Shown in pieces: positions 5,406 to 52,723 of a DNA stretch of 64,000 nt (position 1 is the stretch's first letter; each line of letters starts with the position of its first letter). The stretch spans positions 1 through 64,000 of the forward strand of contig JAFGVK010000097.1 of assembly GCA_016938035.1 (NCBI GenBank), read 5' to 3'. This DNA comes from Deltaproteobacteria bacterium (GTDB taxonomy: Bacteria > Myxococcota_A > UBA796 > GCA-2862545). Under the pieces are notes generated by a model. That model worked only from the letters and a program-made list of their open reading frames with translations. It ran no database searches and had not been told where the DNA came from. A program made the translations under genes and the position numbers.

Positions 5406-6071
5406 CTACAGGCGGGTGCCCCGCACGCAGCGGGTCATCATGTCGCCGTTCCCCGGGTTGAACGAGTCCACCGTGGCCTGGTAGTACTGCACGTACCACT
5501 GCCCGCTCTGCGCGTCCGCCACCGCGGTGGAGGTCCAGAAGCCGTAGAGGCCGCCGAGCAGGGTGCCGTGGAGCTCCGAGGGCCAGTAGAAGCCCTCTGG
5601 GGCGGGCCCCTCGCCCTCGGCGCAGCCGTCGTAGCAGGTCTGGCTATAGCAGGACCCCGGCCCTACCTCCACGCAGCCACCCTGGTCATCGACGGTGCAG
5701 GCGCCCCCCAACTCGGTGGCGGCGCAGCCGCGCAGCAGGCTGCGGGCCTCCCCCACGGTGGGCAGCCGCCAGTCGTCGTGCCCGTCCAGCACCAGATCCT
5801 CACAATAGGCGATCGCCACCGGGAGCATCATGGTCTCGGAGAGGTAGGGGTCCTGCCAGGTGAGGCCGGAGGCGCTGTCGGTCCAGACGCTGGTGTCGGT
5901 GTCGGTGTCCGTGTCCGTGTCGGTGTCCGTGTCCGTGTCCGTGTCCGTGTCCGTGTCGGTGTCGGTGTCGGTATCGGTGTCCGACGAGGAGGTGTCCTTC
6001 TCGGTGTTGTCCGAGCCGCACCCGGGGGAAAGGGACGCGACAGCCAACAGTGCGAGCGAGCGAAACAACAT
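5406..6071 (-). CDS. Lipoprotein with (Asp-Thr)n linker and DUF1566 (Lcl C-terminal) domain
   Basis: A 221-residue secreted lipoprotein. ATG at 6071 has GGAGG upstream and gives a signal peptide ending SLSPGC, a lipobox-like site. An Asp-Thr dipeptide repeat of about 15 units follows, encoded by a 6-bp tandem repeat that probably forms a flexible surface linker. The remainder matches the DUF1566/Lcl C-terminal domain: SGLTWQDP, DGHDDWRLPTVGEARSLL, FWTSTAVADAQSGQWYV and a final MTRCVRG. Several Cys residues in the middle suggest disulfides. Domains of this type occur in exported proteins with C-type-lectin or FGE-like folds. The ligand is unknown, and the gene appears to stand alone. Confidence 0.85.
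   Translation of the reverse strand: MLFRSLALLAVASLSPGCGSDNTEKDTSSSDTDTDTDTDTDTDTDTDTDTDTDTDTDTDTSVWTDSASGLTWQDPYLSETMMLPVAIAYCEDLVLDGHDDWRLPTVGEARSLLRGCAATELGGACTVDDQGGCVEVGPGSCYSQTCYDGCAEGEGPAPEGFYWPSELHGTLLGGLYGFWTSTAVADAQSGQWYVQYYQATVDSFNPGNGDMMTRCVRGTRL
5893..5982 (-). repeat. 6-bp coding microsatellite, (Asp-Thr)n
   Basis: About fifteen tandem units of the type GTGTCC/GTGTCG read on the plus strand, with one GTATCG unit near the end. They encode an Asp-Thr run in the lipoprotein and are in frame, so changes in unit number would alter linker length without a frameshift. Confidence 0.9.
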
Positions 6072-6195: not shown

Positions 6196-6420
6196 GACGC
6201 CACGGGTCAATCAGCCGGACCGGCTCACAGGAGGGGCTTCATCATTCCAGAGGAATCATCCGATGAAGTTGCTCGTCGAATCTTCCAGACTGCAAACGGG
6301 CGCCGAGTCGCTAGGCAAATCGGCGTGCAACCGCCGTTCCGCAGGGAGGAAGCGCACTTTTCTACGCGACGAGCGTAGCAACAAGGACACGCGTCGAGAG
6401 GCCAGCGGATCGGCGCCGGG
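6196..6420 (+). repeat. Intergenic repeat family A, copy A1
   Basis: About 225 bp, matching segments at 13944, 17791, 29926 and 30214. Shared blocks are GGTCNATCAGCCGGAC near the start, CGATGAAGTTGCTCGTCGAA, a CAAACGGGCGCCG block, an AGGGAGGAAGCG block, and GACGAGCG...AACAAGGACACGCGTCGAGAGGCCAGCG at the end. A local hairpin, ATTCC-AGA-GGAAT, is enclosed by CTTCATC...GATGAAG near 6237-6268. The ends are only weakly complementary in this copy. It is followed 240 bp later by family B copy B4. Confidence 0.8.
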
Positions 6421-13943: not shown

Positions 13944-14167
13944 ACCGGCACCGGTCCATCATCGGGACAGTCTCTCAGGATGGCCTTGGTCATTCCAACG
14001 AGACCATCGGATGAAGCTGCCAGTCACATCCTCCAGAGGGCAAACCGGCACGAGTCCCTGGGACCGTCGGCGTGTGGCCGCCATTCCACAGGGAGCATGC
14101 GCACCTCTGTGCGCGACGCGCGCAGGAACCAGGCCCCTCGGCGAGCGGCCAGCGAGTCTGTGCCCCC
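13944..14167 (+). repeat. Intergenic repeat family A, copy A2
   Basis: About 224 bp. The left end CCGGCACCGGTCCATCATCGG is close to copy A4, and the right end contains GTGCC, giving a partly complementary GGCAC/GTGCC pair. Internally TGGTC...GACCA around 13986-14006 can form a local hairpin in the same place where other copies pair ATTCC with GGAAT or CATCGG with CCGATG. Copy B3 follows 120 bp later in the same orientation. Confidence 0.75.
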
Positions 14168-17790: not shown

Positions 17791-17988
17791 CCGGCACCGC
17801 TCCATCCGCCGCAGGAAGCGCTCCATCGGTCCATAGGAACCATCCGATGAAGCTGCTCGTCGACGCTTCCGAACCTCAAAGGGGGGCCGAGTCGCCAGGC
17901 ATTTCGGCGTGTTGCCGTGGTTCCATAGGGAGGAGGAGCACTCTTTGGAACAAGGACGCGCGCCGAGAGGCCGGCGAAGCAGTGCCCC
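17791..17988 (+). repeat. Intergenic repeat family A, copy A3
   Basis: A shorter copy of 198 bp. The ends CCGGCACCGC and GCAGTGCC are complementary apart from one mismatch. Internally CATCGG and CCGATG (17824-17850) enclose the TCC/GGA hairpin position. It ends 73 bp before the fumarase start, so it could lie in the fumarase leader. Confidence 0.75.
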
Positions 17989-29925: not shown

Positions 29926-30089
29926 CGGCGCACCGGTCCATCAGCCGGACCGCCTCACAACACGCGCCTGCTCCTTCCAGAGGCGCCCGCCGCCCTGTGG
30001 ACGCGTTCTCCATGGCGGACGCCCGCTATGGTACGCGTCGAGCGCTGGAACAGAGACAGGCGTCGAGAGGCCAGGGAGGCGGCGCCCTG
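29926..30089 (+). repeat. Intergenic repeat family A, shortened copy A0
   Basis: 164 bp. The left end CACCGGTCCATCAGCCGGACCGCCTCACA (in part) and the right end ACAGGCGTCGAGAGGCCAGG match full copies. The middle, including the CGATGAAGTTGCTC block, is missing or badly diverged. It looks like an internally deleted copy. Confidence 0.65.
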
Positions 30090-30213
30090 TTCGACGCTCC
30101 AGTAAAGGGGACCACCAGGGCGCCCGCGGCCGCGGGGTAGGCCCCCGCTCGGCTCACCCGGCGCCGCGAGGCCCCAGCGGAGCCCGCCCAGCTCGCCTCA
30201 CCCGCTGCGGGCA

Positions 30214-30438
30214 CCCGGCACCGGTCCATCAGCCGGACAGTCTCACAGCAAGCGATGCATCATTCCCTTGGAACCATCGGATGAGGTTGCTCGTCGAATC
30301 TTCCAGACAGCAAACGGGCGCCGCGTCGCTAGGCGGATCGGCGGGTGGCCACCGTTCCCTAGGGAGGAAGCGTACTTTTGTGCGCGACGAGCGCAGGAAC
30401 AAGGACACGCGTCGAGAGGCCAGCGAATCGGTGCCGGG
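30214..30438 (+). repeat. Intergenic repeat family A, copy A4 with perfect terminal inverted repeat
   Basis: 225 bp. CCCGGCACCG at 30214-30223 is the exact reverse complement of CGGTGCCGGG at 30429-30438. It is the best-preserved copy. Against A1 the right two thirds are close to identical, including GCTCGTCGAATCTTCCAGAC and ACAAGGACACGCGTCGAGAGG. Confidence 0.85.
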
Positions 30439-30518
30439 CACGCGGCCGGCAGTGGCCCGGCGAGCCCGGCGAGCCCGGCCACAGACCGCGATTCGACGGT
30501 TCACCTCGGCGGCTCCAT

Positions 30519-38039: not shown

Positions 38040-38106
38040 CACACAGCGGCGCAGGAGGCCAGAACAAAGCCACGCCTCGCGTGGTCAACGGGTCGGGGCC
38101 TCCGGG
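38040..38106 (+). repeat. Possible family A remnant upstream of clpB
   Basis: About 65 bp resembling the right end of family A: AGAACAAAGCCACGCCTCGCG against GGAACAAGGACACGCGTCGAG, followed by GGTCAACGGGTCGG against GGCCAGCGAATCGG. There is no recognisable left part. Weak but position-by-position similar over more than 40 bases. Confidence 0.4.
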
Positions 38107-51931: not shown

Positions 51932-52723
51932 TCAGGCAGACTCGCCAGCGCTGTGGGTAGGGCGCGCGACGGCATCCCCGTCAGATCCCGGGAGCGAGGG
52001 CATGGCCGTGACCTCCGCGACCCCGTCCGCCACGTGGGCGATCAGCGCGATCGACCCCGCGGGAAGCTCCCGCCGGTCGCGGGTGGTGGCCAGCAGCTCG
52101 GTCCGGCCCGCCATCGTCTGAATGACGATCTTCCCCGGCTTGTCCGGTCTCACCGCCAGCAGCACCCTGGCCTCCTGCCCGATGAAGCGCCTCAGCCCGA
52201 CCTCAGCGCTCACAACATCGGTGGCGAGGTGACGAAACAGCCGCGCGGCGCCGAGCCCTAGTCCGCCACCCAGCAGCACCGCGACCGCCGCCGCGGCGAT
52301 GGCCGGCACCCCGAGGAGCGTCAGGAGGGTCCCTCCCAGCCCGAAGGAGAAGGACCCAAAGGTGAAGAACCGCATCGAGAGGAAGGAGCGCCAGAGCGCG
52401 TCCCCTGCAGTCCCGACGTCATGGTGATGGTCCGCGAGGGCGGGCGGGACGTGGTGTTCGGCGTCCAGCGCCGCGTCGTGGTCGAGGTCCGCGTCGTGGT
52501 CGAGATCCACGTCGTGGTCGAGATCCACGTCGTGGTCAAGGTCCACGTCGTGGTCAAGGTCCACGTCGTGGTCAAGGTCCACGTCGTGGTCAAGGTCCAC
52601 GTCGTGGTCAAGATCCACGTCGTGATCCGCGTCAACCTGTGCCTGGTCACCACCCCCTAGGAGCAGCGACACCCCGATGAGCACCCCGCCGAAAGCCAGC
52701 GCGGCCAGGTAGAGAGACAGCAC
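51932..52723 (-). CDS. YqiJ/NfeD-like membrane protein with Asp/His repeat
   Basis: A 263-residue protein. The N-terminal helix (SLYLAALAFGGVLIGVSLLLGG) is followed by about nine DHDVDL-type hexapeptides, a striking acidic and histidine-rich run likely to bind divalent metal. A His-rich patch (HHVPPALADHHHDV) follows, then two or three membrane helices (about 115-160) and an NfeD-like beta-barrel OB domain (VGLRRFIGQEARVLLAVRP, GRTELLATTRD, GSIALIAHV). NfeD-type proteins partner with flotillins, and the twin flotillin genes lie directly downstream with a 128-bp gap. The Asp/His repeat is not a normal part of the family. Confidence 0.88.
   Translation of the reverse strand: MLSLYLAALAFGGVLIGVSLLLGGGDQAQVDADHDVDLDHDVDLDHDVDLDHDVDLDHDVDLDHDVDLDHDVDLDHDADLDHDAALDAEHHVPPALADHHHDVGTAGDALWRSFLSMRFFTFGSFSFGLGGTLLTLLGVPAIAAAAVAVLLGGGLGLGAARLFRHLATDVVSAEVGLRRFIGQEARVLLAVRPDKPGKIVIQTMAGRTELLATTRDRRELPAGSIALIAHVADGVAEVTAMPSLPGSDGDAVARPTHSAGESA
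52475..52626 (-). repeat. 18-bp coding minisatellite, DHDVDL repeat
   Basis: About eight to nine tandem 18-bp units, on the plus strand of the type GTCGTGGTCAAGGTCCAC, differing by single transitions. The inner units are identical, indicating recent expansion or homogenisation. All in frame. Confidence 0.93.

Follow-up and report, generated by a model that had tools for sequence, protein, structure and literature searches.

Small repeats in bacterial genomes are commonly viewed as defunct remnants of insertion sequences whose structure, if any, is a by-product of their inverted ends. HEARO / IscB omega RNA (RF02033) is a structured RNA carried in many copies within a mobile element. The repeat described here, family A, is a 219-bp gene-less element from a Deltaproteobacteria genome (GCA_016938035.1), represented by five copies in the first 64,000 nucleotides of contig JAFGVK010000097.1 (hereafter, the window). 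Bacterial MITEs (Correia/nemis, ERIC, RUP, Nezha, QMITE; PMC10969869) are, like family A, short and non-coding, with terminal inverted repeats (TIRs), target duplication, many intergenic copies and predicted folded transcripts; family A differs from those listed in that half of it is a rod-like hairpin conserved across phyla by covariation, and in that no source insertion sequence was found in its genome. BOX elements of Streptococcus pneumoniae (PMC3049150), set side by side with family A by description, are likewise interspersed and strongly folded, with TIRs and target duplications. GTAG-/CGTC-tagged REPs (RAYT; PMC3733652) are palindromic intergenic repeats, and in Coriobacteriia such a palindrome, tagged CGTC, comes after the rod, whereas family A has a longer rod, a conserved apex and 8-bp duplications, and no Y1 transposase was found in its genome. 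IS256/Mutator elements share the 8-bp duplications, seen together with the end pattern GGTAnTGTCC in two elements of one same-family genome, but for family A no transposase was found inside the element or in the genome, and the end similarity is modest. HEARO resembles the rod as a structured module in a many-copy mobile element, whereas family A has 8-bp duplications, no Rfam match and no associated nuclease gene seen.

Extent, copies and placement of family A

The true boundaries of the element were GGCACC at the start and GGTGCC at the end, within ~10-bp TIRs of the form GGCACYGGTC...GATCGGTGCC that were 86% paired across 69 aligned copies (terminal stem, 86.4% vs. 86.2% in shuffles). The initial annotation had given copy A4 a perfect 10-bp inverted repeat (CCCGGCACCG/CGGTGCCGGG); the ends are indeed complementary, but the 8-bp target duplication spans the outer CCC/GGG, so that three bases per side of that repeat belong to the target. 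All five copies annotated in the window were recovered on the + strand by a profile search (profile built from repeat copies; E 9e-72 to 4e-6; Table 1). The proposed remnant at 38040 was not significant in the same search (best local match 38062-38099, E 0.18). Tandem direct repeats with an 18-bp period and 6-bp steps, probably within coding sequence, were also seen in the window at 52422-52654 and 5875-5994.

Table 1. Positions of family A features and copies in the window
Feature	Position	Strand	Basis or remark
Full 219-bp element, copy A4	30217..30435	+	BLAST, ends, target duplication, profile search
Left target duplication GGGCACCC	30209..30216	.	7/8 identity with right duplication
Right target duplication GGGCACGC	30436..30443	.	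Flank comparison
Left terminal inverted repeat GGCACCGGTC	30217..30226	+	
Right terminal inverted repeat AATCGGTGCC	30426..30435	+	Family consensus GATCGGTGCC
Left hairpin domain	30221..30311	+	Consensus fold; own copies without covariation
Right half, long rod hairpin with right TIR at its end	30317..30435	+	Consensus fold; R2 match 30323-30427
Conserved apex GGAAGCGTACTTTTGTGCGCGAC	30366..30388	+	Stem 30370-30375 / 30380-30385
Copy A1	6199..6417	+	Profile search; R2 match 6305-6409, E 0.41
Copy A2	13947..14164	+	Profile search; R2 match 14053-14159, E 0.14
Copy A3, internal deletion	17793..17986	+	Profile search
Copy lacking most of the middle	29930..30085	+	Profile search, two pieces (model 2-55 and 128-218)

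Copy numbers were determined in the host genome assembly (5.19 Mb, 246 contigs, 89% complete) and are lower bounds. BLAST returned at least 44 matches, at least 40 of them strong. The further copies that the initial annotation called for were found by a genome-wide pattern search at ≤3 mismatches, which located at least 128 right ends (66 forward, 62 reverse) and at least 92 left ends, compared with 0 for a reversed control pattern; 1.07 Mb of the genome contained 138 matches, including 80 at full length. The uniform direction reported for the copies therefore holds for 5/5 in the window and not genome-wide, where the strands are balanced, and the one-way arrangement in the window is chance. 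One 67-bp form (L144 4116-4182) consisted of hardly more than two family A ends. Forms of ~361-365 bp (L142 9442-9802, L157, L189, L194, L195) carried a nested second repeat of ~150 bp, apparently another miniature element; its ends resemble GAGCCACTCGTAAG / ACGAGGGGCTC, and it occurs either way round, with two or more insertion sites among these forms.

The 8-bp flanks of the 80 full copies included 25 perfect duplications, where 0 were expected, and flank identity at k=8 averaged 79% (vs. 34% for a mismatched-pair control); no signal above control was obtained in these copies for lengths of 2-7 or 9-15. Duplication identity dropped as the element diverged (Spearman 0.32 with element score, p 0.004), which fits ageing insertions. 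Genes were called with a simple codon-usage caller, so placement is rough: 124/125 copies lay outside predicted genes (overlap ≤100 bp), though 83% of the sequence was called coding, and neighbouring genes were convergent at 54/125 copies (vs. 99/385 of all intergenic gaps), divergent at 15, and in the two tandem orientations at 33 and 23. This placement is the pattern left by selection purging insertions from genes and promoters, and the copies look like decaying insertions.

The rod in the window genome and in other lineages

The consensus folded into two parts: on the left a hairpin domain, on the right a long rod terminating in the right TIR. This rod measures ~117 nt, and its apex is conserved. 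In the 69-copy alignment, cells were paired at 88.1% in the rod (88.2% in shuffles) and 86.0% in the left domain (85.7% in shuffles), and double changes were not in excess over shuffles in the rod, left domain or terminal stem. The compensatory change that had been read into small hairpins near position 50 of each copy did not hold up, pairing and double changes being at shuffle level, and the covariation sought among the genome's own copies was likewise none above shuffles. On this evidence, those hairpins are alternative pairings in decayed copies; the own copies stem from few close sources and thereafter lost pairs at random. Divergence was 0.10-0.11 at paired and 0.15-0.17 at unpaired sites, which may reflect weak constraint or a composition effect.

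The commonest apex form, GGAAGCGTACTTTTGTACGCGAC, was found in same-family genomes within otherwise different long hairpins, where the apex stem showed compensatory changes (for example GTGTAC/GTACAC). A search of 257 billion bases with the exact degenerate apex pattern returned 60 stretches, against a chance expectation of ~0.1 calculated with even base composition. Hosts, by record title, were mostly Coriobacteriia (Collinsella, Slackia, Adlercreutzia and further Eggerthellaceae), the remainder being Lentisphaerae SIG84, Proteobacteria DTSAM18, Deltaproteobacteria Meg22_24_Bin_159 and one Klebsiella-labelled MAG. Multi-copy genomes included a Collinsella (16 matches), an Eggerthellaceae MAG (23) and a Lentisphaerae MAG (48). 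Searches of plasmids, phages and viral contigs gave 0 matches. The MAG labelled Klebsiella pneumoniae (L092 / CAMASI010000126) contains a rod on a contig that corresponds to one in G004, a genome from the family of the window, and the MAG label is probably wrong. Apex covariation exceeded shuffles on most measures.

Among 19 divergent Coriobacteriia rods, double changes were found at 32/36 pairs, 96.0% of rod cells were paired (70.6% in shuffles) and 160 cells were double changes (41 in shuffles), values matched by 0/500 shuffles; the shuffles leave relatedness in, and slid controls, which also keep it, paired far less (29-45%). Covariance model R2 was built from the Coriobacteriia rods alone and the apex model R1 partly from own copies, and E-values of these home-made models are rough. 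Within the 64-kb window, R2 matched only family A copies at E<1 (best 30323-30427, E 1.3e-4), and it detected full-length rods (E down to 1.7e-12) at loci elsewhere, among them those of DTSAM18, Meg22_24 and Lentisphaerae, as well as outside family A in the window genome itself (L166 6328-6433). Purine-rich or GA-rich unpaired internal loops and the apex sequence were conserved across phyla while the helices changed, and the same rod was found in elements with unrelated ends. The rod structure is thus conserved between lineages by covariation, with a putative action as RNA or DNA. Of the structured RNA closed by a terminal stem, offered as one reading in the initial annotation, the evidence from terminal pairing and compensation fails, and the structure stands for the right half, through other genomes.

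The elements that carry the rod differ between lineages. In Lentisphaerae SIG84 it lies inside a different 277-bp element (ends GGTATTGTCCCAATTTTTGTG / GTTAATGTCTCAAATGTTGTG) with perfect 8-bp duplications in 15/25 copies and longer ones in none. Rod-less SIG84 forms of 165-184 bp had perfect duplications too, which suggests that insertion may proceed without the rod, later rod deletion being equally possible. No autonomous element behind the Lentisphaerae ends was present among the loci read. In DTSAM18 the rod was part of a composite repeat, with three in tandem at 100 bp. At three DTSAM18 loci (L234, L235, L241) a second, smaller hairpin whose sequence resembles GAGGAGC...GCAGCGACGAAG is followed by a conserved GCGAAAGCAATCCCAG linker and the rod, a two-hairpin unit of which several occur in pairs. 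Target duplication was looked for at the Coriobacteriia rods and none was found. In Coriobacteriia (L082-L140) the rod often precedes GCAGCGTCG and a strong palindrome of the CGTC-tagged REP kind, of which some loci have several.

Mobilisation and competing explanations

The MITE-like non-autonomous element, the other initial reading, is borne out by the TIRs, exact 8-bp duplications, copy number and dispersion. Family A is probably a MITE-like non-autonomous DNA transposon whose rod module is selected in mobile lineages while the copies in this genome decay. The 8-bp duplications show insertion through an 8-bp staggered cut, and the element would have been inserted there as double-stranded DNA, with a DDE-type transposase, most likely of IS256/Mutator type, supplied in trans. 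Surviving copies lie mostly downstream of genes, a position in which they would be tolerated. Selection on the rod structure would operate on the mobile lineage, not on what individual copies do for the host; the rod, for example as folded RNA or as extruded or single-stranded DNA, may be bound by a protein and aid copying, targeting or persistence.

Transposases of the Y1, ISL3, IS1595 and IS256 families were searched for in the 89% complete assembly and none was found (Y1_Tnp, PF01797, 0 matches). A Transposase_mut gene was absent from this assembly and from Lentisphaerae SIG84, and no autonomous element with family A ends was present in 1.07 Mb of the genome. Many accepted MITEs have no living autonomous partner, so the missing partner weakens the claim about the source and not the claim of a MITE. 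DTSAM18 contained two IS256 elements (PF00872, E 1e-115 or better), 1402 bp in length and bounded by ends GGTAGTGTCC; their 8-bp duplications, CTCGAATC and CGTGGGGC, were exact. The ends bear a good likeness to the Lentisphaerae end GGTATTGTCC and a modest one to family A GGCACTGGTC. An IS256 insertion beside the DTSAM18 rods was seen for only 1/2 copies and was taken as chance. Judged from end and duplication sequences, IS256/Mutator is the likeliest source of the enzyme, a call that could go either way, and that source may have been lost or may lie in the missing 11% of the genome.

The rod may instead be a gene or module for a small structured RNA that works either for the cell or as an RNA-level parasite (SINE-like) and that different transposons acquired across phyla, and this has nearly an even chance of being right. 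The strong covariation, the unpaired GA-rich internal loops that are kept, the recurrence of the rod within elements of unrelated ends and its occurrence outside family A in the window genome all speak for it; against it, promoter or terminator patterns near the window copy were no better than chance, no Rfam relative was found, and the own copies show no covariation. A role of the copies as host bidirectional terminators or mRNA-stability hairpins at gene ends is unlikely: their enrichment between convergent genes would suit it, but that placement needs no more than an avoidance of promoters and genes, pairs decay at the shuffle rate, and the window copy has no terminator pattern. Quasi-palindrome correction can change both arms of a long inverted repeat jointly, and the hairpin could in principle be kept by such DNA mechanics, through template switching and without selection on structure. 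Mismatches would then vanish, yet purine-rich loops and apex persist across phyla, and the own-genome copies show no such correction, which makes this explanation quite improbable. A REP/RAYT-type palindrome moved by a Y1 transposase, suggested by the many-copy hairpin repeats and the CGTC-tagged palindrome after the Coriobacteriia rod, is very improbable, given the 0 Y1_Tnp matches in the genome and exact 8-bp duplications, which are unexpected for Y1 enzymes.

Novelty and meaning of a conserved module on decaying elements

Rfam gave no family at the gathering cut-off and only weak matches with a raised E-value; one of these, Srn266 to the Lentisphaerae element, was weak, lay mainly over the AT-rich part and was rejected. 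The letters of the apex motif had no match in the literature searched, of which coverage was partial. Both results agree with the initial statement that no described family has this sequence, and the rod in the repeats of distant bacteria seems not to have been described before. It is tentatively proposed, as possible and not as probable, that the rod, with its fixed apex and GA-rich loops, may be a new cross-phylum structured module riding on unrelated miniature transposons in at least 3 lineages, selected for spread of the element as a SINE-like analogue, with a putative apex-recognising protein partner.

For the MITE-like family A, what stands out is the contrast between a structure conserved with covariation between distant bacteria and its decay in the copies of the window genome. 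This contrast opens to testing the hard question of how a folded module benefits a mobile element without genes. With its short, exact sequence the apex lends itself to use as bait for a protein partner, and it is present in cultured Collinsella and Slackia strains.
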